Source of the DNA: Nibricoccus aquaticus
Lineage (GTDB): Bacteria > Verrucomicrobiota > Verrucomicrobiia > Opitutales > Opitutaceae
Direction: 5' to 3'
DNA: 64,000 nucleotides
NCBI RefSeq assembly: GCF_002310495.1
Contig: NZ_CP023344.1
Location: 2,745,501 to 2,809,500 of the forward strand
The position numbers and the translations under genes are program-made. The notes below the pieces were generated by a model. The model did no database searches and had not been told where the DNA came from. It saw nothing but the letters and a program-made list of their open reading frames with translations. Position 1 is the first letter of the stretch. Each line of letters begins with the position of its first letter. Below, piece after piece: positions 36,588 through 50,247 of this stretch.

Positions 36588-38287
36588 ATGATGAAGAAGA
36601 TACTGACGGCTTTGGGTTTTAATGCGCGTTTACTGGCCCTTGGGTTGGTGGCGTCCGTGTGTGCGTTCGCGAGCGAGGAGCAGCGTGTGGTGGAGAAGAT
36701 CGAGGCGGGGCCGGCGCAGGTGTTGAATGCGGCGCTGCCGACGTTGTGGGTGGCGGGTGACTCGACGGCGGCGAATGGGAATCCGAACGCGACGGGGTGG
36801 GGGAAACCGCTGCCGACGTTTTTTGACGCGACGAAGATCAATGTGGCGAACCGCGCGCGGGGGGGCGGAGCAGCAAGACGTTTGTCACGGAAGGTCTGTG
36901 GGATCAGATATTGCAGGAGCTGAAAGCGGGCGATGTGGTATTGATTCAGTTTGGACACAACGACAGCGGGGCGGTTTTTACCGGGAAGGCGCGGGCGTCG
37001 TTGCCGGGGCTGGGTGAAGAGACTCAGGAAGGGAGGTTGCCGGATGGGAAGGTGGAGACGGCGCGGACGTTTGGCTGGTACATGCGGAAGATGATTGGCG
37101 ACGTGAAGGCGAAGGGGGCTCGGCCGGTATTGTTGTCGCTGACGATCCGGCAGCGTTGGGAGAACGGAAAAGTGGAGCGGGCGAGCGGGAAGTATAGTCA
37201 GTGGACGGCGGAGCTGGCGAAGAGCGAGGGGGCGGCGTTCATCGATCTCTCGACGATGATCGCGGACCGGTATGACGAGCTCGGTGAGGAGAAGGTGAAG
37301 GCGTTTTTCCCGAAGGACTATGTTCACACGGGGCCGGAGGGGGCGGAGCTGTCGGCGTCACTGGTAGTGGCGGGGTTGAAGGGACTGCCGACGAACCCGT
37401 TTGGGACGGTGGAGCCGTATTCGGAAAAGGGGCACGCGGTGGAGGCATCGCCTTTGACGGTACTGGATGCGCCGAAACCGGCGGCGAGAGCGGCGCGTGA
37501 ACGGAAGCCGCTGCCGGTGCCGGCGAATGTGGCGTTGCCGTCGCTTTTCCTGATTGGCGATTCGACGGTGAGGAATGGGCAGGGCGATGGCGCAAACGGT
37601 CAGTGGGGTTGGGGCGAGCCGGTGGTGGCTTACTTTGATGCGACGAAGATCAATGTGGTGAATCGGGCGGTGGGCGGCTTGAGCAGCCGGACGTATTTGA
37701 CCGGCGGGCATTGGGAGAAGGTGCTCGGGATGATCAAGCCGGGGGATTTTGTGATCATGCAGTTTGGCCACAACGACAGCAGTGCGGTGAACGACAACAC
37801 GCGAGCGCGCGGGACGATCAAAGGCACGGGCGAGGAGACGGAGGAGATCGACAATGCGCTCACGAAGCAGCGCGAGGTGGTGCATACGTACGGCTGGTAC
37901 CTCAGGAAGTTCATCGCGGAGGCGCGGGCGAATGGGGCGACGGCGATCGTGTGTTCGCCGGTGCCTCGGAAGAAGTGGAGCGAGTCGGAGGCGGGGCTGA
38001 AGACGGTTGTGCGTGGGACGGGCAGTTATGCGACGTGGGCGGAAGTGGTCGCGACAGAGACGGGCGTGGCGTTTGTGCCGCTCAATGAGATCATCGCGCG
38101 CCGGTACGATTCGCTGGGAGTGGAGGCGGTGAACGGACTTTTCGGTGACGAACACACGCACACGAACCGGCTGGGAGCGGAATTGAACGCGGGGTGCGTG
38201 ATCGCGGGGTTGAAGGCGCTGAATGAAAATCCGCTGGCGGCGTTTCTGAGTGTGGAGGCGGCGAAGGTGGAGTCGTTTGTGCCGTGA
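36588..38287 (+). pseudogene. Tandem two-domain CE12 rhamnogalacturonan acetylesterase, frameshifted at a G7 run
   Basis: The gene begins with a signal peptide at 36588 (MMKKILTALGFNARLLALGL) and encodes two SGNH domains. The first has WVAGDSTAAN, then the frame breaks in the run of seven G at 36859-36865. Adding one G restores ARGGRSSKTFVTEGLWDQ, which is exactly the GGRSS block expected, and joins the rest (QFGHNDSG, DYVHTGPEGAELSA). The second domain, about 37540-38250, is complete: IGDSTVRNG, GGLSSRTYL, QFGHNDSS and DEHTHTNRLGAELNA. As written, the first frame stops at 36923, and the second could restart at 36911 but without signal peptide or catalytic Ser of domain one. Possible causes are a sequencing error, a real pseudogene or a slippage-switchable tract. 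It follows GH115 by 5 bases. Confidence 0.88.
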
Positions 38288-38596
38288 TCGGACTCTGTGT
38301 GGAGTCATACGTTAATGGGAAATTGATCCGTGTTTCACGCCGCGTCGGTGTGGATGTTTGTGAGATGTCTGAAAAATACGTCCTGTACGGTCCGATTCGT
38401 ACTGGATGATTCTAAGAGCACTCGCGGATGGGAATATTCGCTCTTCGTATGTCAGCCAAGTTCAGCCCCAACCCTGACTGCGTCCGCTAACAGGCGCATT
38501 TTCTTAAATCACGTTTCCCTGCGAACTGTTGCTGACCGAGCACTCCTCAGCCGTGTCGCTACGATTTTTCAGTCGTTAGTCCGATCCAAACAAACT
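38288..38596. other. 309-base leader before the TonB-dependent receptor gene
   Basis: No coding region is supported here. The stretch is less GC-rich than its surroundings and reads continuously in the receptor frame only by chance, with no signal-peptide-like start. A small palindrome (GACTC/GAGTC, 38291-38306) follows the CE12 stop. The promoter of the receptor should lie here, but no convincing -35/-10 pair could be picked. A regulatory leader is possible. Confidence 0.4.
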
Positions 38597-41500
38597 ATGA
38601 AAAACCGAACCCCCAACAGATACCTCGTCCGGTTGCTACTTGCGCAAATATGCGCGTTTAGTGCCGCGACTCCGGTCTTCTCTCAACAAGTCAAACCAGA
38701 GGCGGCTCCCGTCTCGCAACCTGCTGGTGGTGCACCGGCAGTGACCCCGGAAACGATGCCTTCAGAAGACGAGACGATTGTGCTCTCGCCGTTCACCGTG
38801 CAGTCGTCCCGAAAAGACATTGGTTATTATGCCTCGAATACGCTGGCTGGCAGCCGGTTGAATTCGAATGTAGGCGATCTCGCCGCTCCGATCACGGTCA
38901 TTACCAAGCAGCAACTAGAGGACACCGGCGCTCGCGATTTGAATGACGTCTTCCTATACGAGGCCAATACCGAGGGCGCGGGTAATTACACCCCCATCGA
39001 GGTGAACCGCTCCGGCCTGAAAGATCGTATCGGCGGTTCAGCGACAAACGGCATCGGCGCCAACACATCGGTCACGGCCAATCGCGTGCGCGGTCTTGGC
39101 AACGCCGATATGATGTGGAACTATTACAGGTCGATCAGCCGCGTGCGTGGCGATACCTATAACGCCTCATCTTTGGAATTGAGCCGCGGTCCCAACGCGA
39201 TTCTCGCCGGCATGGGTAGTCCCGCCGGCATTCTGAATCAAAGCATTAACATGGGACGGATCGGAGTGGATTCAAACGAAGTGAACTTCGCCGTTGGTAG
39301 TTTTGATTCTTATCGCGCCAGCGTGTCGGTAAATCGCACTCTGGTTCAGGACAAGTTAGCGATCAACTTTGCGGCTCTGTACGATAATCGTGAGTTTTCT
39401 CGGAAGCCCTCATACGATGTGTCTAAGCGTCAATCGGGTGGTTTCACTTACAAGCCGTTCAAGAAAACCACGATCAAGGGTTTCGTTGAGAACTATAATA
39501 ACTACAGCCGCACACCCAATCAGCTGACGCCTCGTGACGGTGTGACGCCATGGTTGCGGGCCGGGCGTCCGGTCTGGAATCCTCTCACACAACAAGTCAC
39601 GTATCTTGACACGGGTGCAGTCAGTGCTCCCTACCGGACTAACGACACCCAAGTGATCGTGTACAACGGTGCCAATGTCACGTTGACGGGAGATGCCGTG
39701 CTGACGGATCCCCGCTCACCGCGATATGTGGCTGGATTGGGGTTTCCGTCCTATGCGCGGCCCACACAGTTCATCAATCCGGATGGATCAAATTTCTGGA
39801 TGCAGGGCCGGGCCGGGGCATTTAACATCTACGGATTCACGCAAGCTCAGATCAATGCGGATCCGACGAGGTTTAATGCCTTCAACGCACGCATTGCCCA
39901 GTCATCCGTTTTTGCAGCGCCGATCGGCATCTACGACATCGTGGGTGGCGGTAATTTCGTCCCGAGCAGCGTGACGGATCAACGCATCTACGATTGGAAT
40001 GAGGTAAACATCGCGGCGACGAACTATGGAGAAATGCGGAACGCGACCTACAACTTGGAGTTTGAACAGCAGTTGCTGCCGAACCTATTTTTCTCCGCTG
40101 GCTGGTTTAAGCAGGATCTGGATACACTTGAACAGTACCCGATCTCCCAGCTCGCAACGACCACCTTGATGGTTGATGTGAACCAGTTTCTTCCCGATGG
40201 CCGGGCGAATCCCAACTATCTGCGGCCCTTCGTGGACGCGCAGGATCCGGATACGGCGAAAACACCTGAGACAAATGAAACCTATCGGGCCATGCTCGCC
40301 TACGATCTCGACTTCACGAAGAACGATGGGTGGAGCAAGTGGCTTGGCCGGCATCGTTTGCTGGGGTACGTTTCCCGTCAGGAGGGTAACGTCACGACCC
40401 AACGTTTCCGCCGGGCGTTCTCCGATCCAAGCGACCCGCGCTATGTCGTTCCGCTGACTGCGATGGGGCTGCAGACCGCGCGTGCGGCTGGTTATCGCTT
40501 CGCTGGAAATGCTAGCGGTTCCCGTCAGGTTTATTACGTTGGCGATGGCAGCAGTGTCGTCGGTTACGGACCTTCTGCGGTCGCTCGTAATCCTCTCCCC
40601 GGTGAATATATCTCCGATCAAATCACGTCGTATAACTGGGCGACAAATACGTGGGATCAGGCTAATGTCACGTATGGTACTGAGTGGTTCGATGCCGGCG
40701 GCGGCGTGAGTTCGAGCCAGACAATCGTCAACAGCATGAGCTTTGCGGCGCAGAGCTTTTGGTGGAATGATCGGATTGTGACGACCTATGGCGTCCGTGA
40801 GGACAAGTGGTCGGGACGTAACACCACGACGGCCGCCGTTCCTGAATTCGGCCTGCCCGCGCTGAACGATGCTGCGCTATATCCGAACTGGCGTCTCGCC
40901 GAGCATGAACTCGGTCTCTTGGATCGTTGGGGAAAGCGCGAGTACCTCAAGGGAAACACGGGTACTCTAGGTGCTGTGGTGAAGCCGACTCGTTGGTTCA
41001 GCGTGTTCGCGAACACCTCCGACAACTTCAATCCGCCGCCGAATGCCTCCACGGATATTTTTGGCAGGGCGCTGCCCAAGCCTACCGGCGAGAGCACTGA
41101 TTACGGTGTGTCGTTGAATCTCTTCGACAACAAGCTGGTGGCTCGCGTGACCCTATTCGAAACGACCAACGAGGCTGAACGCGCCCCGACGGCGAATACA
41201 TTGCTTGGTCGCCTCACGCGTATGGATAGCGCCAATCTGCGTGCCTGGGCTGACATGGTTATTCGCGTCCGTGGTGGAGCTGATCCCACTGCCAGCAATG
41301 ATTGGGCGAACAATACCATCAATCCGATGACTCCGACCCAGCAGGCTGCTGCTCAGCAACTGATGGGCGGTCTTCCCTATAACTGGCCCACTGGCACGAG
41401 CTTCTCCAGCACGCAGACCAATAAGGCGGAAGGTATGGAGTTTGAGGTTATCTATAACCCCAAACCTAACTGGAATATCAAGTTCACCGCCGCGAAACAG

Positions 41501-42184
41501 GAGACTTCATATGAGAATATCATTCCCGAGTACGATGCGTGGTATGCTAGCCGTCTTCCGATCTGGCAGGCGGCTGCCGCGCCCGATATGGCAGCGGAGT
41601 ATATCCAGCCTAATGGTACGCGCGTTAGTTTGCGCAACTTCTACACCGGGTATGGCTTTGGTGAGACTAACGTCGTCACCGGCGTGAATGGTTTCAACCC
41701 GCAGGACTGGTACGCTAAAGTTGTCGCCGGCGAAGTGGCGGCGGCCCGCCAGCTCGAAGGCGCTTCGCCTTATGGGCAGCGTAAATGGCGCGCGAACATC
41801 CTTTCCAATTACCTGTTCACAAATGGTATTTTGAAAGACTTCAGCGTGGGTGGTGCGGTTCGCTGGGAAGATCGTGCTGTCATCGGTTATTATGGCGTCA
41901 CCAATGCCAGTGGCCAGTACCTCCGCACTGACATCAGTCGTCCGATATACGATACCAACGTCGGTGCTGATCGCTGGAAGGATCTAACGCATTTCGACCT
42001 TTGGCTTTCGTATCGTTTCAAGATGCTCGGTGACCGTGTGCGCACCAAGGTGCAGCTGAACGTTGTGGATGTGCTCCAGTCCGGTGATATCATGCCCGTG
42101 TATGCCGGCTATGATGGAAATCCGGTTGGTTATCGCATTCTCGATTCCCGCCGCATCACGCTCAGCACGAAGATGGAGTTCTGA
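38597..42184 (+). CDS. TonB-dependent outer-membrane receptor, Opitutaceae type
   Basis: ATG 38597 starts a signal peptide (MKNRTPNRYLVRLLLAQICA) and yields 1,195 residues; the frame to 38330 is open but lacks a plausible start. After a Pro/Ala linker comes a TonB-box-like ETIVLSPFTVQSS, then the plug (APITVITKQQLEDTGARDLN, VRGLGNADMMWNYY, ELSRGPNAILAGMGSPAGIL). The remaining 950 residues form the beta-barrel, ending in the aromatic-terminated strand ITLSTKMEF. Large receptors of this group are abundant in Opitutaceae and take up glycans, peptides or siderophores. Its place beside the pectin enzymes suggests oligosaccharide import. There is no SusD partner. Base use is closer to balanced than in neighbours. 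A strong terminator follows. Confidence 0.93.
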   Translation: MKNRTPNRYLVRLLLAQICAFSAATPVFSQQVKPEAAPVSQPAGGAPAVTPETMPSEDETIVLSPFTVQSSRKDIGYYASNTLAGSRLNSNVGDLAAPITVITKQQLEDTGARDLNDVFLYEANTEGAGNYTPIEVNRSGLKDRIGGSATNGIGANTSVTANRVRGLGNADMMWNYYRSISRVRGDTYNASSLELSRGPNAILAGMGSPAGILNQSINMGRIGVDSNEVNFAVGSFDSYRASVSVNRTLVQDKLAINFAALYDNREFSRKPSYDVSKRQSGGFTYKPFKKTTIKGFVENYNNYSRTPNQLTPRDGVTPWLRAGRPVWNPLTQQVTYLDTGAVSAPYRTNDTQVIVYNGANVTLTGDAVLTDPRSPRYVAGLGFPSYARPTQFINPDGSNFWMQGRAGAFNIYGFTQAQINADPTRFNAFNARIAQSSVFAAPIGIYDIVGGGNFVPSSVTDQRIYDWNEVNIAATNYGEMRNATYNLEFEQQLLPNLFFSAGWFKQDLDTLEQYPISQLATTTLMVDVNQFLPDGRANPNYLRPFVDAQDPDTAKTPETNETYRAMLAYDLDFTKNDGWSKWLGRHRLLGYVSRQEGNVTTQRFRRAFSDPSDPRYVVPLTAMGLQTARAAGYRFAGNASGSRQVYYVGDGSSVVGYGPSAVARNPLPGEYISDQITSYNWATNTWDQANVTYGTEWFDAGGGVSSSQTIVNSMSFAAQSFWWNDRIVTTYGVREDKWSGRNTTTAAVPEFGLPALNDAALYPNWRLAEHELGLLDRWGKREYLKGNTGTLGAVVKPTRWFSVFANTSDNFNPPPNASTDIFGRALPKPTGESTDYGVSLNLFDNKLVARVTLFETTNEAERAPTANTLLGRLTRMDSANLRAWADMVIRVRGGADPTASNDWANNTINPMTPTQQAAAQQLMGGLPYNWPTGTSFSSTQTNKAEGMEFEVIYNPKPNWNIKFTAAKQETSYENIIPEYDAWYASRLPIWQAAAAPDMAAEYIQPNGTRVSLRNFYTGYGFGETNVVTGVNGFNPQDWYAKVVAGEVAAARQLEGASPYGQRKWRANILSNYLFTNGILKDFSVGGAVRWEDRAVIGYYGVTNASGQYLRTDISRPIYDTNVGADRWKDLTHFDLWLSYRFKMLGDRVRTKVQLNVVDVLQSGDIMPVYAGYDGNPVGYRILDSRRITLSTKMEF

Positions 42185-42211
42185 TCAGCCGTTCGAAGTT
42201 TATTTAGCGCG

Positions 42212-42243
42212 AATGCCCCCTCCAGATGGAGGGGGCATTTTTG
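42212..42243 (+). terminator. Rho-independent terminator after the TonB-dependent receptor gene
   Basis: Perfect 12-base arms AATGCCCCCTCC and GGAGGGGGCATT enclose AGAT and are followed by TTTTTG, a textbook intrinsic terminator 27 bases after the receptor stop. It makes the receptor an independent transcription unit from the GH43 gene beyond. Confidence 0.92.
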
Positions 42244-42332
42244 TAAACGCGGTATGCTCTTCGATTTTGATTTTGTCCCTTTTGGCGATGGCTACGTCTC
42301 TCCATTCATTTCTGGCCGGACCTGTCATGCTT

Positions 42333-43745
42333 ATGAAAAATCTACGCTCCTTTTTTTTAGTCCTAATCCCGCTATACGCATATGGTGCAGCGGCATTCGG
42401 CAAACAGGTGGAAGTCATCTGGGAGACGGCTCATGCGGGGAATCCGGTGTTGCCGGGGTATTTTGCCGATCCGTCGGTGCTGGTGCAAGACGGGAAGTTT
42501 TTCGTTTACGCGACCAACGATCCGTGGGGCGGGGAGACGCTCGGGTGCTGGGAGTCGGCGGACTTCAAGCAATGGACGTTTCGCGCGCTGAACTGGCCGA
42601 CGAAGGCGGCGTGCACGAGCGCGACGTCGAAGGGTGCGATGGTGTGGGCGCCGTCGGTCGTGCGGGCGAAGAGTGGGGAGTTTTTTATGTACGTTTCCGT
42701 CGGCAGCGAGGTGTGGGTGGGCGTCGCGGATGCGCCGCTCGGGCCGTGGAAAAATGCGTTGGGCGACAAGCCACTCATCGCGGGAAATTGGAAGCCGGAG
42801 TTTCACATGATCGATGCGGAGGCGTTCGTGGATGCGGATGGCAGCGCGTATCTCTACTGGGGCTCGGGGTGGAACTGGACGAACGGACGGTGCTTCGCGG
42901 TGAAGTTGAAGGCGGACATGGTGACGTTTGACGGCGAGCCGCGGGATGTGACGCCGGCGAATTATTTCGAGGCTCCGTTCATGGTGAAGCAGGGCGGAAA
43001 ATATTTTCTCACGTACTCGAATGGGAAAACGATCAGCGACACGTACGAAGTGCGCGCGGCGGTGGGGGATTCGCCGCTGGGACCGTTTGTCGAGATTGGC
43101 GAGAGTCCGATTCTGGCGAGCAACATGAGGAACGATCTGATCAGTCCTGGGCATCACGCGGTGTTCGCGCATGGCGGGAAGAGCTACATCGCATATCATC
43201 GGCACCGGCTGCCGTTCGAGGAGAACACGGCTTTCCGGCAGGTGTGTGTGGATGAACTGACGTTCACGGACTATGGGACGATCAACAAAGTCGTGGCGAC
43301 GCACAGCGGGCCGGCGTTCGTGCAGGGGAGGGCGATGGCGGGGAATCTCGCGACGACTGAGGCGGGCGCGGTGGCGACGGCGTCGAGTGTGGCACCGGGG
43401 CAATTTTCGGGCGCGGCGCGGGTGATCGATGATAATTATGCGACGCTCTGGACGGCCAGCGCCGAGGCGAAGGGCGGGTGGTTGCAGCTGGATCTGGGCG
43501 CGACGAAGGCGGTGAAGAAGAGCGTGCTGCGGTTTGAGTACGCGTGGAAAAAATATGCGTTCACGCTGGAGTCGTCGGCCGACGGCAAGACGTGGAAGAG
43601 GCTGTCGGATCAGCGGGCGGGCGGCGGCGTGAGCGGGTCGCCGGTCACGGTCGAGCACGCGGGGGAGGCGCGTTATTTGCGTATCGTGTTTCCGGGCACG
43701 GTGGCCGGGAAGGAGATCGGCGTGATCGAGTGGGCAGTCTTTTGA
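42333..43745 (+). CDS. Secreted GH43 glycosidase with C-terminal F5/8 (CBM32-like) domain
   Basis: ATG 42333 (MKNLRSFFLVLIPLYAYGAA) gives 470 residues with a signal peptide; ATG 42327 two codons earlier is equally possible. The propeller (about 25-320) has the GH43 residues Asp in PGYFADPSVLV, Asp in HMIDAEAFVD and Glu in NYFEAPFMVKQGG. Residues about 330-470 form a discoidin-like beta-sandwich (ARVIDDNYATLWTASAEAKG, LQLDLGATKAVKK, YLRIVFPGT), suited to binding galactose- or arabinose-type sugars. Arabinosidase or xylosidase/galactosidase activity cannot be decided. It sits after the receptor terminator, so it has its own promoter in the 90 bases between. Confidence 0.9.
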   Translation: MKNLRSFFLVLIPLYAYGAAAFGKQVEVIWETAHAGNPVLPGYFADPSVLVQDGKFFVYATNDPWGGETLGCWESADFKQWTFRALNWPTKAACTSATSKGAMVWAPSVVRAKSGEFFMYVSVGSEVWVGVADAPLGPWKNALGDKPLIAGNWKPEFHMIDAEAFVDADGSAYLYWGSGWNWTNGRCFAVKLKADMVTFDGEPRDVTPANYFEAPFMVKQGGKYFLTYSNGKTISDTYEVRAAVGDSPLGPFVEIGESPILASNMRNDLISPGHHAVFAHGGKSYIAYHRHRLPFEENTAFRQVCVDELTFTDYGTINKVVATHSGPAFVQGRAMAGNLATTEAGAVATASSVAPGQFSGAARVIDDNYATLWTASAEAKGGWLQLDLGATKAVKKSVLRFEYAWKKYAFTLESSADGKTWKRLSDQRAGGGVSGSPVTVEHAGEARYLRIVFPGTVAGKEIGVIEWAVF

Positions 43746-43784
43746 GCGGGCCGGCGCCGTCCGGAGCGCATGCGCGCTTGGAGT

Positions 43785-44291
43785 TTAATGCGGCGCGGCG
43801 GCTGGCGCGATCCCGGATGGAGCCGGAGCTGCGGCGGCGGTGAGGCGCTTGAGTTCGCGCACGAAAGTTTTTGCGCCGCCTTGCATGTAGCCGAGGCGGC
43901 CGAGCTCTTTGCCATCCGCGTCGAGGAGCAGGAGGGTGGGATAGCTGGTGACGCTGTATTTTTCCTTCAGCGCGGCGTGTTGTTTTTCCAGATCCGGGGG
44001 GAGTTTCGTCTGACGCGGGGAATCCACTTCGAGGAGCACGAGGTTGGCGGTGGCGTAGTCGAGGAAGTGTTTCTGGACGAAAATCTCGTCGCGCACGCGG
44101 TGGCACCAGATGCACCAGTCGGAGCCGGTGAAGTTGATGAAGAGCGGGCGGCGCAGTTCGGTGGCGCGCTGAAATGCGGTGTCAGGGCCGGTGATCCACG
44201 CGGGGCTGGTGGCGGGATTGCCGGTGCTTTCGGCGCGGATAATCGCGGAGGGAGCGGTGATAAAAAGCAGGAGTGCGAGGAGGGTTTTCAT
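43785..44291 (-). CDS. Periplasmic thioredoxin-like protein
   Basis: The 168-residue protein has a signal peptide (MKTLLALLLFITAPSAIIRA) and a thioredoxin fold with an active-site pair Cys60-Ile-Trp-Cys63 in FTGSDWCIWCHR. The cis-Pro is in SVTSYPTLLLL. This WCxWC form is that of DUF255/thiol-disulfide oxidoreductases that reduce or isomerise periplasmic disulfides. An Ala/Pro-rich tail ends the protein. It starts 18 bases after the Sel1-TonB gene ends, so the two are an operon; it may serve that protein or other exported Cys proteins. It converges with the GH43-CBM32 gene. Confidence 0.85.
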   Translation of the reverse strand: MKTLLALLLFITAPSAIIRAESTGNPATSPAWITGPDTAFQRATELRRPLFINFTGSDWCIWCHRVRDEIFVQKHFLDYATANLVLLEVDSPRQTKLPPDLEKQHAALKEKYSVTSYPTLLLLDADGKELGRLGYMQGGAKTFVRELKRLTAAAAPAPSGIAPAAAPH

Positions 44292-44309
44292 GGGGCGATG
44301 GGGGGCGGA

Positions 44310-46766
44310 TTATTGTTCGCGCAAATTAAAGATGAGGGGGATCTGCATGCGGATTTGCACGGGTTTCCCGCCGGTCATGGAAGGTAGGAAGCGCCATTGC
44401 TCCACGGTTTTTATCGCAGCGGTGGCGAACTCGGGATGCGTGGCTTTGATGATCTGGATATTTTGCGTGCGCCCTTCGACGGTGAGTTCGAAGCGAACGA
44501 CGGCTTCTCCGTTCTGGTCGAGGATGCGCATCCGCGAGGGATAAATGGGCGGCGGCTGCCAGAAGGGTGTGGCCCCGGAATCCGTCCGGGTAGTGAGATG
44601 GGTGGCGAGTTTGTTGGCGAAAAGGGCTTCGTCAAAAGCGGGGAACGCGGATCTGGCGCCGAACTGCTGGACGGCTTTATCGGGATCGTGGCCGGAGCGG
44701 TGAAGAAGTGAGCAGGCGAGTTGGAAGTTTAACTCGGCTGAACGAAGCAGGTATTGCCGGGCCTTGGGGAGATTCTCGGGGGTGGCGAAGCCTAGCGCGT
44801 GAAACTGCGCCAGCAGGTAATTCGCGAAACCGCTTTCGGGAGCGGCGGCTTCGAGGAGGGCGAGGCCGGCGGGTTCATCGGCTTCGCACGCGAAGCCGAC
44901 CGCCTGGTGAAACCCGAGCGCGGCAGCGGTGGCTTTTCCGGGGAGCGCGGCAGCTTGTTGGGCAAGCGCGTAGGAGGCTTTGTAGTCGTGGGGGACGTAG
45001 TGGTGTTGAACGTAGGCGAGGGTGAGCGTTTCCATCGCCCAGAGATTTTTCTCGTCGCAACGATGCTGGAGCCGGGCGATGGCCGCGGCCGGATCGCGCA
45101 GCCAGTCGGGGCCGTTGATCAACAGATCGACAAGCAGGCGCTCTTCGGCGGTTTCGGATTTGCCGGCGAGCGCGGCCCAGCGATCGAGCAGAAGGGCGCG
45201 CATTTCGGCCTGGCTGGCGACCGGGGTGGTGTAGAGCAGGCCAAAGATTTCCTCCCGGATCTGGCCCGGGGGATTTTTGTCGAGGACTCCCAATACCTGG
45301 TCGAGGGCGGCGGGAATGCTTTTCTCCACTCCGCGGCCTTCGAGGTAGTACCAGGCGAGATACACGCCGGCCTGGAGATCGCCCTGTTTCGCGGCGAGCG
45401 AGTGCCACGTGAAGGCTTCCTCGTCGTCGCGCTCGATGCCGGTGCCGTTGAGCAGGTACCAGGCGACGGTCTTCTGCGCCTCGATCCTTCCTTCGCGGGC
45501 GGCGCGTTCGTACCACATAAACGCGGTGGCGGGATCGGCCGGGACGCCGATGCCGTTTTGATAGATGGCCCCGAGCTGGACCATGGCGGAGGATTGTTCG
45601 TCGCGGGCGGCGGCTTCGAGCCAGCGGATGGCGGTGGCGTGGTCGGTTTTGCCGTCGACGGGATTTTCGAGGGCGATCATGCCAAGGCGATACTTGGCCC
45701 AAGCGCTTCCGCGGGCGGCGGATTTTTCGTAGAGAGTGCGGGCGTGGGCCAGATCCGGCGCGGTGCCCCGGCCGTACTCGTAAGCGTAGGCGACCTCGTC
45801 GATCGTGGTGGAGTCTTCTGCGTCAACGACGCTTTGGAAAACTTCCAATGCGCGGCGCTCGTCTTTGGGGATACCATCGCCGCCACGCAGGCGGCGACCG
45901 AAGTCGAGGCATGCAGCGGGGTGCTTTTTGATGGCGGCGAGTTCGAGCCAGCGCAGACCTTCGGCGGTGTCTTTGCTGTCGGATTCGAGGAGTTCTTCGC
46001 TGAGCGCGTACATGGCGCGAGGTACGCCTGCCTCGGCGGCAATGTGGAGGTAGTGCCGGGCCTGCGCGGCGTCTTTCTCCGTGAGGAGGCCGTGGCGATA
46101 ATAGAGCGACAGCTTGAGGGCAGCCGGGCCGAAATTTTTATCGGCTGACTGGCGGAGGAGGCGGATATGGAGACGGAAATCCGGAGCGGAGCAGCGACCG
46201 TCGAAATAATACTGGGCGAGGTTGAACTGGGCGATCCGGTCGCCTTCGGAGGCGGCGTCGCCCAACCAGAGGAAGGCGCGGGCGAGTTTGGGGATGAAGG
46301 TGCGGCCGCTCAGGCCGAGCCAGTCTTCGGGAATGGGAGCGGTGGAGAATCGGGCGTCGCCGGCGAGAGCGAGGAAGCGGGCGGCCTTTTGAAGATCACG
46401 TTTAGTGAGGAAGCCGTATTCGAATTTCCAGGCGAGATAGCCGGCGGCGGTTTTGTTTCCGCGTTCGGCGGCCTGGGTCATGGAGTGAAGCGACTGGTCT
46501 TCGTCGAGCGCGAGGCCGGCGCCCATTTCTTGAAGATAGCCGAGCGCAAAAAGCGCGGACGTGTCTCCCTGATCTGCGAGCGATTGAAGGCGGATGCAGG
46601 CTTCGACCGGGTCGCTGTTTTTCAGCAGCGATTCGATTTCGTGGAGGGTTGTGGAGACTGTTGTCTGGGGCGGTGCGGCGATAGGGGCGGGCGTCTCGGA
46701 GGAGGCGAAGAGGCCGATGCAGGAAAGCGAGGCGCAGGCGATGAGAGCGCGGGGTAGTTGGGCCAT
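44310..46766 (-). CDS. Exported Sel1-repeat protein with C-terminal TonB domain
   Basis: The 818-residue protein starts with an export signal or anchor (MAQLPRALIACASLSCIGLF). Residues about 45-480 contain around ten Sel1/TPR-like alpha-helical repeats (YAYEYGRGTAPDLAHARTLY, LGAIYQNGIGVPADPATAFM, YLLNGTGIERDDEEAFTWHS), and more degenerate helices reach to about 700. The last 85 residues are a TonB C-terminal domain (PIYPSRMRILDQNGEAVVRF, ending in WRFLPSMTGGKPVQ). TonB-C domains contact outer-membrane receptors, and Sel1 repeats bind proteins. The fusion without a clear Pro-rich spacer is unusual. Located near a TonB-dependent receptor but on the other strand; its link to sugar uptake is speculative. 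A pyrimidine-rich tract precedes the ATG. Confidence 0.85.
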   Translation of the reverse strand: MAQLPRALIACASLSCIGLFASSETPAPIAAPPQTTVSTTLHEIESLLKNSDPVEACIRLQSLADQGDTSALFALGYLQEMGAGLALDEDQSLHSMTQAAERGNKTAAGYLAWKFEYGFLTKRDLQKAARFLALAGDARFSTAPIPEDWLGLSGRTFIPKLARAFLWLGDAASEGDRIAQFNLAQYYFDGRCSAPDFRLHIRLLRQSADKNFGPAALKLSLYYRHGLLTEKDAAQARHYLHIAAEAGVPRAMYALSEELLESDSKDTAEGLRWLELAAIKKHPAACLDFGRRLRGGDGIPKDERRALEVFQSVVDAEDSTTIDEVAYAYEYGRGTAPDLAHARTLYEKSAARGSAWAKYRLGMIALENPVDGKTDHATAIRWLEAAARDEQSSAMVQLGAIYQNGIGVPADPATAFMWYERAAREGRIEAQKTVAWYLLNGTGIERDDEEAFTWHSLAAKQGDLQAGVYLAWYYLEGRGVEKSIPAALDQVLGVLDKNPPGQIREEIFGLLYTTPVASQAEMRALLLDRWAALAGKSETAEERLLVDLLINGPDWLRDPAAAIARLQHRCDEKNLWAMETLTLAYVQHHYVPHDYKASYALAQQAAALPGKATAAALGFHQAVGFACEADEPAGLALLEAAAPESGFANYLLAQFHALGFATPENLPKARQYLLRSAELNFQLACSLLHRSGHDPDKAVQQFGARSAFPAFDEALFANKLATHLTTRTDSGATPFWQPPPIYPSRMRILDQNGEAVVRFELTVEGRTQNIQIIKATHPEFATAAIKTVEQWRFLPSMTGGKPVQIRMQIPLIFNLREQ

Positions 46767-46892
46767 GGAAGGAGCTACGTTGGGAATCTGCGAAAGCGCG
46801 GCAAGCAGCGGGTTGCGACGCCGCTTCTTCGGACTGTAAACGTGGCGGGCGATTGGCTAGGGGTGTGCGTGCGCGAACGTCTTTCCCCTTCC

Positions 46893-48899
46893 ATGATTTC
46901 CTCCAAGTTCCCTTCCACGATCTTCTACGGCGGCGACTATAATCCCGAGCAGTGGCCGGAGTCGGTCTGGCCGGAGGATGTGCGGCTCATGAAGGAGGCG
47001 GGGGTGAATCTGGTGAGCGTGGGGATTTTCAGCTGGGCGCGGATTCAGCCGGATGAACACACGTTCGACTTTGGGTGGCTGGATCGCGTTTTCGATCTGC
47101 TGTGGGCGAACGGGATCTCGGTGTGTCTCGCTACTTGCACGGCATCGCCGCCAGCGTGGATGTGGCGGAAGTACCCGAATATTTTGCCGGAGGATGCGAG
47201 TGGCATTCCGTACAACCAGGGGGCGCGGCAGCATTATTCGCCGTCGAGCTCGAACTACCGGCGGCTGGCGGCGGTGTTTGTGCGGAAGCTGGCGGAGCGT
47301 TATGGGAAGCATCCGGCGCTGGTGACGTGGCATATCAACAACGAGTACGCGTGTCACATGAACGAGTGTCACAACGCGGAGAGCACGCTGGAGTTTCGCG
47401 CGTGGTTGAAGAGGAAATACGGAACGCTGGAGAAGCTGAACGAGGCGTGGGGCGCGGCGTTTTGGAGTCAGCTTTATCATCAATGGGACGAAGTACTGAC
47501 GCCGCGGCGGGCGCCTTATCACTGCAATCCGACGCAGCAGCTGGATTTCAAGCGGTTCACGAGCGATGAGTTTCTGGAGTGTTATCTGATCGAGCACCGG
47601 ATACTGCGGGAGATTTCGCCGGCGATTCCGATCACGACGAACTTCATCGGTTTTTTTAAGCCGCTGGATTATCACCGCTGGGCGCAGGAGATGGATTATG
47701 TGTCGTGGGACAATTATCCGGACCCGCTGCTTGGACACGGCGCGGAAGCATACGGTGCGGTGGGGCATGACCTGAAGCGGTCGCAGAAGAAGACGATGCC
47801 GTTTGTGTTGATGGAGCAGGCGCCGGCGGCGGTGAACTGGCGTCCGCTGAATCCGACGAAAAACCCAGGCGTGATGCGGCTGCAGAGTTTGCAGGCGGTG
47901 GCGCGCGGGGCGGATGGCGTGATGTTTTTCCAGTGGCGCGCGTCGAAGGCGGGCGCGGAGAAGTATCACAGCGCGATGATTCCGCACGCGGGTGTGGAGA
48001 CGCGGACGTTTAAGGAGATTTCACAGCTGGGCGCGGAGTTGAAGAAGCTCGGTGCGGTGGCGGGGACGCTGGTGAAGCCGACGGTGGCGATCACGTTCGA
48101 CTGGGATGCGTGGTGGGCTGTTGAGCTGGAATCGAAGGTGGCGCGGATCGATTACGTGGCGTGGACGCAGGAGATTCATCGCTGGTTTTATGAGCGGAAC
48201 ATCGCGGTGGATTTCGTTCATCCGGAAGAGAAGTTGGACGGGTATTCGCTGGTGGTGGCACCGGCGCTTTATCTGCTGACGAAGAAAAACGCGGACAACG
48301 TGACGGCGTATGTGCGAGGCGGCGGCACGTTACTCGCGACGTATTGCTCGGCGATCGTGGATGAGAACGAGCATGTGGTGCTCGGCGGGTATCCGGCGTG
48401 GTTGCGCGAGGCGCTCGGGCTTTGGATCGAGGAGTGGGCGGTGATGCCGGAGACGCAGAAGAATGTTTTGAAGTTCGCGGGCGGAGAGACGTGTGACGCG
48501 AAGCATTGGTGCGACGTGATCCATCTCGAAGGCGCGAAGGCGCTCGCGACGTTCGAGAGCGATTTCTTTGCGGGGCGCGCGGCGGTGACGGAGAATGCTT
48601 TTGGGAAGGGAGCGGCGTTTTATCTCGGGACGAAACCGGATGCGGTCGGGTTGACGCGTGTGCTGGAGGCGGCGGTGGCGCGTGCGAAGGTGTCGCCGGT
48701 TTTGAAGACGCCGGCGAACGTCGAAGTCACGGTGCGCGAAGGCGGCGGGAAACGGTTTTTGTTCGTGCTCAATCACGGCGAGGCAGCGGTGGAGATCGCG
48801 CTTGGCGGGATCGCTGGCGTAGAGTTGTTCAGCGGTATCCGCGCGACGGGCACGCTGAAGTTGGCGGCGCTCGGTGCGGCGGTGGTGTCCGTGGAGTAA
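46893..48899 (+). CDS. Cytoplasmic beta-galactosidase, GH42
   Basis: ATG 46893 (MISSKFPSTIFYGGDYNPEQ) gives 668 residues with no signal peptide, so the enzyme acts on imported oligosaccharides. The GH42 barrel has the acid/base Glu in TWHINNEYACHMNEC and the nucleophile Glu in FVLMEQAPAAVNW, as well as GIFSWARIQPDEHTFDFGWL and SSSNYRRL. The Cys residues in CLATCTA and ACHMNEC may bind zinc as in thermophilic relatives. The trimerisation domain and a C-terminal sandwich follow. Substrates are beta-galactosides or, in some members, alpha-L-arabinopyranosides. It diverges from the Sel1-TonB gene across 126 bases and converges with the LacI gene, which may be its regulator. Confidence 0.93.
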   Translation: MISSKFPSTIFYGGDYNPEQWPESVWPEDVRLMKEAGVNLVSVGIFSWARIQPDEHTFDFGWLDRVFDLLWANGISVCLATCTASPPAWMWRKYPNILPEDASGIPYNQGARQHYSPSSSNYRRLAAVFVRKLAERYGKHPALVTWHINNEYACHMNECHNAESTLEFRAWLKRKYGTLEKLNEAWGAAFWSQLYHQWDEVLTPRRAPYHCNPTQQLDFKRFTSDEFLECYLIEHRILREISPAIPITTNFIGFFKPLDYHRWAQEMDYVSWDNYPDPLLGHGAEAYGAVGHDLKRSQKKTMPFVLMEQAPAAVNWRPLNPTKNPGVMRLQSLQAVARGADGVMFFQWRASKAGAEKYHSAMIPHAGVETRTFKEISQLGAELKKLGAVAGTLVKPTVAITFDWDAWWAVELESKVARIDYVAWTQEIHRWFYERNIAVDFVHPEEKLDGYSLVVAPALYLLTKKNADNVTAYVRGGGTLLATYCSAIVDENEHVVLGGYPAWLREALGLWIEEWAVMPETQKNVLKFAGGETCDAKHWCDVIHLEGAKALATFESDFFAGRAAVTENAFGKGAAFYLGTKPDAVGLTRVLEAAVARAKVSPVLKTPANVEVTVREGGGKRFLFVLNHGEAAVEIALGGIAGVELFSGIRATGTLKLAALGAAVVSVE

Positions 48900-48938
48900 A
48901 TCCGAAGGTCGAATGCCGAAAGTAAGGCAGTCGGAATT

Positions 48939-48973
48939 GATCGCGGAAGGGCGGAGGGGCGGAAGCGCCGAAG
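48939..48973. repeat. GCGGAAG-type dispersed repeat
   Basis: GATCGCGGAAGGGCGGAGGG continuing GCGGAAGCGCCG is a copy of the same block found at 20297, 24484, 27416 and 57004. It opens a 280-base, repeat-filled gap between the GH42 and LacI genes. Confidence 0.65.
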
Positions 48974-48990
48974 TGATCTCGGAATGGGGC

Positions 48991-49007
48991 GGCACTTGCT
49001 AAGTGCC
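48991..49007. repeat. Hairpin repeat, GGCACTT type
   Basis: Arms GGCACTT and AAGTGCC around GCT; the flanks (GGGGCGGCACTTG, TAAGTGCCGGTC) match the inverted copy at 808-824. Confidence 0.6.
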
Positions 49008-49040
49008 GGTCCGGGGCGGACAGCGAGGGAGTGGGGGCGA

Positions 49041-49066
49041 ACCGGCGGGTTAGGGATGACCCGGCC
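49041..49066. repeat. Hairpin repeat, GGCGGGT type
   Basis: ACCGGCGGGTTAGGGATGAC followed by CCGGCC is the reverse-complement relative of the element at 13291-13312. It is followed by TATCTCGG, a variant of the CTACCTCGG flank. Confidence 0.6.
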
Positions 49067-49096
49067 TATCTCGGAGCCACGCGCGATGGCGCGTGG

Positions 49097-49164
49097 CGGC
49101 GCTGCGCAAGCGCAGGCCCTACAGTCGGGTGGCGGCGCACGGCGTGCGCGCCCTACCTCGGAGG
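49097..49164. repeat. Two adjacent hairpin repeats with CCCTAC flanks
   Basis: The first element, CGGCGCTGCGCAAGCGCAGG then CCCT (49097-49120), agrees at 23 of 24 bases with 56377-56400. The second has arms GCGCAC and GTGCGC (49135-49149) followed by GCCCTACCTCGGAGG, the flank also found after the inverted repeat at 13467. Stems differ, flanks stay. Confidence 0.65.
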
Positions 49165-49179
49165 CCGCGCGCGATGGCT

Positions 49180-50247
49180 TTATGCGAGGACCGCTTCAGC
49201 GGGTTCGCGGATGGGACGGGCGAGGGTTTTGTCGCGGATGGTGGGGCCATCGACCCAGCGGGCGGCGATGGTGGTGAGCGAGGCGGGCTGGGGGGCGCCG
49301 CGTTCGTTGCGGTGGAGTTTGGCGACCAGAATTTCGGCGGCACGGAGGCCGATATGCGCGGGTTGTTGATCGAGGCCGGCGCAGGGCGTGGTGGAGTTGA
49401 GAATGTTGAGGGAGACGAAGGCGTGGGTTTTGGGGACGGACGCGCCGCAGGCTTTCATCCACTCGAGGGCTTGGGAGTTATGGCCGAGGACGACGTCGGG
49501 CTGATGTTTTTTGAACCAGGCGGTGAAGTTTTTCTCGTTGATCTCATCGGCCATGAGCAGGGGGACCTGGCCGCAGTCGGGATTGTTTTGTTGAAAGGCG
49601 AAGAAGGCGCCCTGCCAGCGGTACTGTAGGCGTTCGTCGTGGTGGCGCTGGACGAACATGCCGGGGCGTTTGTAGCCGCGGGCGGTGATTTGCTGGAGGG
49701 CGGTGCTGAGGGAGCGGTGGTGGTCGGGGCAGATCGAGTGGAGGGCGGGTTTCTCGATCATGTAGTCGGCGTACACGCCGGCGTAGCGGCCCCAGTCGAG
49801 GGCGGTGAAATCGGGGGAGTGCCAGACGGGCATGAGGATGAGGCCCTGGATGCCGCGGGACTGAAGGATTTGATCGAGGCGGGAAAGGGAGACGCCGGTG
49901 TCGCCGCCGGCGGTGAAGAGTTCGATTTTGAAACCGAGGGCGCTGGCGCGGTCGGTGGCGCCGCGGAGAATTTCTTTGAAGAAGGGGCCGGCGTGGAGAG
50001 GGCGGTCGGACTCGGTGAGGGCGACGGCGGCGAGGACTCCGCGGAAGGCGTTGCCACGGGAGCGGCGGAGCTCGGACATGACGGCGCCGGCGAGAGGGTT
50101 GGGCTGGTAGCCGGCGGCTTTGGCGGCGAGCTTGATGCGCTCGGCGGTGGCGGGCTTCACGCAGGAGGAACCGCGCAGGGCTTCGGAGACGGTGGTGCGG
50201 GAGAGGCCGAGGGATTTCGCGAGCGTGCGCAGGGTCGGAGCGGGCAT
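49180..50247 (-). CDS. LacI-family transcriptional regulator
   Basis: The 355-residue protein begins with a LacI helix-turn-helix (TLRTLAKSLGLSRTTVSEAL, residues 5-24) and the hinge region with NPLAGAVMSELRRSR. A periplasmic-binding-protein-like sugar sensor follows (FFKEILRGATDRASALGFKI, GIQGLILMPVW, WVDGPTI near the end). It probably represses or activates sugar genes in response to a ligand; the convergent GH42 gene and the CAZyme block are the obvious candidates, by context only. It diverges from a membrane-anchored repeat protein across 185 bases, where a TGCAT/ATGCA palindrome could be its own operator. Confidence 0.9.
   Translation of the reverse strand: MPAPTLRTLAKSLGLSRTTVSEALRGSSCVKPATAERIKLAAKAAGYQPNPLAGAVMSELRRSRGNAFRGVLAAVALTESDRPLHAGPFFKEILRGATDRASALGFKIELFTAGGDTGVSLSRLDQILQSRGIQGLILMPVWHSPDFTALDWGRYAGVYADYMIEKPALHSICPDHHRSLSTALQQITARGYKRPGMFVQRHHDERLQYRWQGAFFAFQQNNPDCGQVPLLMADEINEKNFTAWFKKHQPDVVLGHNSQALEWMKACGASVPKTHAFVSLNILNSTTPCAGLDQQPAHIGLRAAEILVAKLHRNERGAPQPASLTTIAARWVDGPTIRDKTLARPIREPAEAVLA

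Follow-up and report, generated by a model that had tools for sequence, protein, structure and literature searches.

The C-terminal domain of TonB is usually read as the mark of an energy transducer, which raises the question of what such a domain might do on an exported protein whose predicted topology leaves it unable to act as one. The question is posed by a pair of genes in a 64,000-nucleotide stretch of the Nibricoccus aquaticus chromosome (contig NZ_CP023344.1, positions 2,745,501 to 2,809,500 of the forward strand; hereafter the window), the 4.73 Mb genome of which is a single contig. Positions 43785-46766 of the window are occupied by two minus-strand genes. Gene 1 (44310-46766, start at 46766), called as an open reading frame with Pfam matches and homologues, encodes an 818 amino acid protein with Sel1 repeats and a C-terminal TonB domain (TonB_C). 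Gene 2 (43785-44291) begins 18 bp past the gene 1 stop codon and encodes a thioredoxin-like protein of 168 amino acids. The initial annotation of the sequence had described just such a protein with just such a partner, and Pfam, NCBIfam and the coordinates all agree. The 18 bp gap makes a single transcript likely, and we therefore regard the two genes as likely to be co-transcribed. The answer that we tentatively favour, with somewhat less than even confidence, is that they make up a two-gene envelope unit, in which a non-energised periplasmic adaptor docks by its TonB domain and is accompanied by a redox helper.

The body of the gene 1 protein is a Sel1 solenoid of several repeats (approximately residues 71-679; 44730-46556, minus strand). 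Pfam matches Sel1 in nine stretches (E = 2e-50, 167.9 bits), and a Sel1 profile trained on gene 1 and three homologues finds 14 full or partial repeats, a count that is generous because the profile is self-trained. The full-length AlphaFold2 model shows the body as a helical solenoid, for which the best Foldseek matches are the Sel1 proteins 6ok3, 4bwr and 8sxq, with AlgK lower; 3e4b and 1ouv are among the matches. The tail (residues 739-815; 44322-44552, minus strand) is matched by Pfam TonB_C (2.4e-16, 60.4 bits against a cut-off of 24.6) and by NCBIfam tonB_Cterm (47.9 against 27.1). A PDB search with the last 99 residues gave 12 distinct sequences at E <= 0.01, every one of them named TonB (best 6fip, 2.2e-9).

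Modelled in isolation, from an alignment of 26 rows drawn from N. aquaticus and related genomes, the tail is predicted to adopt the TonB fold (predicted local distance difference test, pLDDT, 91.3; predicted template modelling score, pTM, 0.79). Twelve structures match at E <= 0.001, and every one, FusB among them, is a TonB-type C-terminal domain; ranked by template modelling (TM) score, 6i97_D from the FoxA complex comes first (TM 0.83, root-mean-square deviation 1.6). TM scores are 0.68 to 2gsk_B and 2grx_C, both from receptor complexes, 0.60-0.80 to unbound TonB and 0.39-0.46 to TolA domains. The initial annotation had made its proposal depend on the tail having both the fold and the contact residues of TonB. 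The modelled fold bears out the former; for the latter, a sequence comparison shows the YP motif kept, with PPIYP standing opposite the PPVYP of the best PDB chain, and R745 aligned with an arginine in the E. coli TonB chain. We take the end of the tail with the YP motif and the R745 region to be the contact side for a TonB box.

Homologues of gene 1 are few and divergent. A search of the family found matches at E <= 1e-25 in six of 252 genomes, and four of these matches extend over the whole protein: the genome's own, G161 (a metagenome-assembled genome of Candidatus Didemnitutus, a genus placed by NCBI in the Opitutaceae, Verrucomicrobiota), G005 (protein start chosen by hand) and G203 (N-terminus cut by a contig end). 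The other two, G197 and G205, match in the Sel1 part only, and no TonB_C domain was found in the G197 protein by Pfam or in the G205 loci by a local profile. A search of the order (44 of 372 genomes matched at 1e-40) added one further homologue from another family, G387, whose C-terminal TonB_C domain scores 33.4 bits against the cut-off of 24.6. In the phylum, 153 of 387 genomes matched at 1e-40, with no new Sel1-TonB_C protein among the loci fetched. The order and phylum searches returned mostly Sel1-only proteins, and one single-protein search of genome contigs gave no relative. Since only the best two or three candidates per genome were scored in the family, order and phylum searches, and TonB_C ends were checked in up to 30 loci per search with approximately 1.5 kb of flank, the five homologues are a lower bound. 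The four found outside N. aquaticus share 30, 28, 26 and 25% identity with gene 1 and span two families. Both domains recur in all four, which rules out a chance or frameshift fusion or an assembly artefact. Nor is the fusion unique within its own genome, where a shorter Sel1-TonB_C paralogue lies at C1:3641844. This second protein (L071:3309-4664; G000:C1:3641808-3643163, minus strand), of 451 amino acids counted from a TTG start, is encoded directly downstream of a 654 amino acid protein with two cNMP-binding matches, and no thioredoxin-like gene was found in its 8-kb locus.

The thioredoxin-like neighbour picked out by the initial annotation recurs too: in four of the five Sel1-TonB_C homologues a DsbH-like gene lies directly downstream on the same strand. 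The gap is 18 bp in the window, 2 bp in G161 (from an ATG), 25 bp in G387 and 17 bp in G203 (TTG start). Further out the neighbours differ: GH43 and GH42 genes in the window; radical-SAM/TRAM and guanylate kinase genes in G161; NadA, an AraC-type regulator and, approximately 6 kb off at the edge of the locus, an amylase C-terminal fragment in G203; class-II aldolase, TetR and URO-D genes in G387; and RmlD and polyphosphate kinase genes in G005. Adjacency in four of five divergent homologues, from two families and amid differing neighbours, is hard to explain by chance, a judgement made without a computed probability.

How is the gene 1 protein placed in the cell? Residues 1-21 (46704-46766, minus strand; MAQLPRALIACASLSCIGLFA) read by eye as an export signal with a cleavage site. 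The hydrophobic stretch reaches a best 15-residue mean of 2.23, and no 19-residue window of the N-terminus has a mean hydropathy over 1.6, a limit that by itself separates the classes poorly, with the anchored protein L069 falling below it and several export signals above. There is no histidine in residues 1-41 and hence no histidine of the SHLS type, a motif of the TonB-type anchor segment described in the accessible part of PMC12204202. Proline makes up 5% of the protein and the body consists of Sel1 helices, leaving nothing that resembles a Pro-rich spacer. Lipoprotein signals are recognised by a lipobox, and the G161 homologue, with the N-terminus MTAVKRLCLVALCGPCWLLSGC, carries one (LSGC). 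The gene 1 protein is thus predicted to be exported to the periplasm without a TonB-type anchor, and is probably free there in N. aquaticus and lipid-anchored in Ca. Didemnitutus. Without a transmembrane anchor, no energy would be expected from ExbB-ExbD.

The rest of the genome provides the context for this. There are 25 TonB_C matches, 24 of them over the cut-off, which group into 20 proteins, one of these (L076, at 4508384) being a partial match. Sorted by eye, with start codons chosen by hand, 12 of the 20 appear to be exported or lipidated without an anchor, six to be anchored and two to have internal segments; all six anchored proteins have a histidine in or beside the hydrophobic segment. 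Anchor-less TonB_C proteins are therefore not the rarity that the initial annotation implied, outnumbering anchored ones by 12 to six in this count by eye. ExbD, which it had suggested looking for elsewhere, has eight matches in the genome, and anchored TonB genes lie near ExbD genes in three sets; no ExbD match lies near gene 1 (ExbB was not searched for). With 47 matches to the receptor Plug domain as well, receptors are available and an unanchored domain is not needed to energise them.

The second gene of the pair encodes what is, judged by its sequence, a DsbH-like thioredoxin-fold protein with an export signal assigned by eye. Its WCxWC site lies within the motif GSDWCIWCH, the CIWC active-site residues being 60-63 (44103-44114, minus strand). 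Three Pfam families score over the cut-off of 27 (Thioredoxin_2 36.8, Thioredox_DsbH 34.0 and Thioredoxin_7 33.0), and residues 39-149 align with residues 39-149 of PDB 2ju5 (E = 1.4e-24), which is labelled Thioredoxin Disulfide Isomerase and which we take to be the DsbH of Chlamydia. The NCBIfam DsbH model (NF043050) gives 116.3 bits against an equivalog cut-off of 190, so gene 2 is DsbH-like rather than an established DsbH; the pair members of the relatives, at 128.7, 127.0 and 109.8 bits, likewise all fall below 190. Three pair members retain an intact active site, and each of the five homologue genomes encodes a DsbD-type membrane electron carrier. According to PMC5193440, chlamydial DsbH is a reducing dithiol oxidoreductase that has been proposed to contribute to a reducing periplasm, and it had not been reported outside chlamydial species as of 2016. 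The DsbH-like relatives found here make up a wider group. A search of plasmids with gene 2 returned two Hymenobacter thioredoxins.

Two trees were built for this family, one of 75 rows that included two partial copies of gene 2 (L047 and L051) and one of 55 rows that excluded both. In each, the pair thioredoxins of the Opitutaceae come together (98/92). The 55-row tree sets these, together with a gene at a contig end in G032 that has a very long branch, apart from the 51 other rows. The G032 protein (L124:5646-6038, minus strand) is cut by the contig end, its upstream gene lying beyond the contig. It was the closest relative (53% identity) in a search of 150 genomes with gene 2, a sample that did not contain G161, and its first residues are unlike the family, perhaps, to judge by eye, the mark of a chimeric contig end.

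How might the two proteins work together? The gene 1 protein would be exported to the periplasm as a long Sel1 scaffold, and its TonB domain would dock by beta-strand addition, pairing with a strand of its partner. The most likely target, we infer, is the TonB box, whether in one TonB-dependent receptor or in several. The protein could then place periplasmic proteins at receptors, either as an adaptor or by competing with anchored TonBs, with gene 2 supplying an exported, DsbH-like putative thiol oxidoreductase that would serve the same complex or its clients. A more elaborate version, in which the adaptor sits on the TonB boxes of receptors and recruits a thiol reductase and other periplasmic clients there, gating or repairing uptake at the outer membrane without ExbB-ExbD, seems to us improbable. 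If it were true, the genome's remaining anchor-less TonB_C proteins would belong to this class of adaptors as well. What gives the system its interest is that here the TonB domain is joined to a scaffold for interactions, and that its gene is paired, across divergent relatives, with one for a redox protein; should such tails bind receptor boxes, these bacteria would use TonB domains for docking or regulation as well as for force.

Several observations weigh against an adaptor with a redox helper. The full-length model of gene 1, built from four sequences, is of moderate quality only (pLDDT 74.2, pTM 0.49); none of the analyses yielded a binding partner, docking being a prediction; and only five Sel1-TonB_C homologues, its own included, came to light in searches that set a lower bound. 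None of 21 neighbouring genes scanned with Pfam in the four relatives has a Plug match or is a receptor, and a tblastn search of the relatives' loci with the receptor of the window gave no match, a weak test with a single query. G005 has no DsbH-like gene in its 15-kb locus or in its genome, at the limits used, and in the G203 partner (L121:5829-6290, minus strand) the active site reads WSVWC, the first cysteine being lost while the remaining frame is open; G203 is a single draft genome, 86% complete, and the change could mean that the protein has a non-redox role or that this one draft contains an error. Finally, the G387 partner falls outside the grouping of the other three pair members. The label 'pair' requires four changes on the first tree, where 500 of 500 shuffles are as low but the two partial copies of gene 2 distort the count, and three on the second, where 27 of 500 are, and pair members form one group in 0% of bootstrap trees in either case. 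A single clade of the four is not statistically rejected (approximately unbiased test, p-AU 0.458).

Nearly as likely as the adaptor is the possibility that the TonB domain is a general periplasmic docking or peptidoglycan-proximal module, and that the gene 1 protein is an AlgK- or CpoB-like envelope scaffold unrelated to TonB-dependent receptors. The 12 proteins judged by eye to be anchor-less among the 20 TonB_C proteins, some with two or three tandem TonB_C domains, suggest wide co-option of the domain. The structural matches include the Sel1 scaffold AlgK, no receptor was found beside the relatives' copies, and PMC8597729 describes Anabaena SjdR as TonB-like but with a function other than transport. 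Against this stands the tail itself, which retains the YP motif and is well closer to TonB (best TM 0.83) than to TolA, although the fold alone does not give the target. That the protein is instead a working energy transducer, its uncleaved export signal serving as the anchor and the Sel1 body replacing the Pro-rich spacer, we consider very unlikely on the grounds of its topology. The N-terminal hydrophobic stretch would suit such a protein and the hydropathy test is weak alone, since L069, which is anchored, also has no 19-residue window over 1.6; but the missing histidine, found in all six anchored proteins, the lipobox of the G161 homologue, the helical solenoid in place of a Pro-rich spacer and the lack of an ExbD match near gene 1 (ExbB was not searched for) all speak against it.

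A separate doubt concerns the partner, which could be a housekeeping redox gene that is merely co-transcribed, the two products not cooperating. It is common for DsbH-like genes to have no Sel1-TonB neighbour, DsbH-like matches occurring in 56 of 150 genomes at 1e-8 and in 144 of 344 at 1e-25. Among 80 loci kept from 125 relatives of gene 2, only L157 (the G161 locus) has a TonB_C gene, and in L172 and L232 a Sel1-like gene lies at a distance of more than 2 kb; of 30 loci from the 1e-25 search, only those of the window and of G387 have a Sel1-TonB_C neighbour. The missing partner in G005, the lost CXXC in G203 and the trees, in which the pair members are unsupported as a single clade, can be read in the same way. 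We nevertheless think it rather unlikely, given same-strand adjacency in four of five homologues that share 25-30% identity, come from two families and have differing neighbours, an argument that carries no computed probability. What the partner acts on is a different matter. The suggestion that it keeps the Sel1-TonB protein reduced found no support, because no cysteine column of the mature gene 1 protein is common to more than two of the five homologues, G203 has WSVWC and G005 has no partner.

All of the parts of this system are known, and it is the combination of Sel1 with TonB_C, and its pairing with a DsbH-like gene, that we have not found in print. The gene 1 tail resembles TonB of E. 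coli and P. aeruginosa (PF03544) in its fold, its YP motif and a PPxYP start like that of P. aeruginosa; unlike TonB, the protein has no His-bearing N-terminal segment, has a Sel1 solenoid for a Pro-rich spacer and has no ExbD gene nearby. It shares the solenoid with the exported Sel1 proteins AlgK, c5321/EsiB, HcpC, MotX and MerG, none of which is described with a TonB domain in the records consulted, and falls far below the NCBIfam cut-offs for MerG (66.1 against 350 bits), MotX (57.8 against 330) and AlgK (41.2 against 700). HcpC is cysteine-rich according to its PDB title, whereas the gene 1 set has no conserved cysteines. Gene 2 is like the Chlamydia protein 2ju5 in its WCxWC site and in the aligned residues 39-149; it differs in scoring below the equivalog cut-off, in lying beside a Sel1-TonB gene and in having a relative with WSVWC. 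A Sel1 gene near a TonB-dependent receptor gene is sometimes seen in the receptor/oxygenase neighbourhoods of the CciT/PiuA type (a table in PMC6240677), in under 25% of genomes according to PMC12004943. These loci differ from that of gene 1 in having a receptor nearby, and in the parts of these sources available the Sel1 protein is not described with a TonB domain; the occurrence of Sel1 genes near receptor genes in other bacteria lends slight outside support to the receptor idea. The word Sel1 is absent from the main text of a study of TonB/TolA evolution (PMC12204202), and we found no description of a Sel1-TonB fusion or of anchor-less TonB_C proteins among the open-access papers listed, as judged by titles and the start of abstracts.

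In the window, the pair lies on the opposite strand within a polysaccharide locus (36588-50247) in which esterase-like genes (assigned by eye) are followed by a TonB-dependent receptor, GH43 with an F5/8-type domain, GH42 and a LacI regulator. A 126-bp intergenic stretch (46767-46892) separates gene 1 from the divergent GH42 beta-galactosidase gene (identified by Pfam) and could possibly be a regulatory region common to both. The initial annotation had pointed to the receptor gene at 38597 as a candidate partner. The relatives do not support a tie of the pair to the surrounding receptor or polysaccharide genes: there is no receptor among the 21 neighbours scanned, none was found with the weak single-query tblastn search, and one neighbour, at the far edge of the G203 locus, is an amylase C-terminal fragment.

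Three other TonB_C loci in the genome have unusual architectures. A 443 amino acid protein (L065:2026-3354; G000:C1:1393525-1394853, minus strand) combines sigma-70 regions 2 and 4 with two hydrophobic segments and ends in a TonB_C domain (67.9 bits); it is apparently a sigma factor fused to a TonB domain. Adjoining plus-strand genes (L068:2200-4539; G000:C1:1358699-1361038) encode proteins with three and two tandem TonB_C domains, which consist largely of TonB_C and appear by eye to be exported without an anchor. Lastly, a 914 amino acid protein (L074:1218-3959; G000:C1:366717-369458, plus strand) combines three PEGA matches with a C-terminal TonB_C domain and has a strongly hydrophobic stretch near residue 504.

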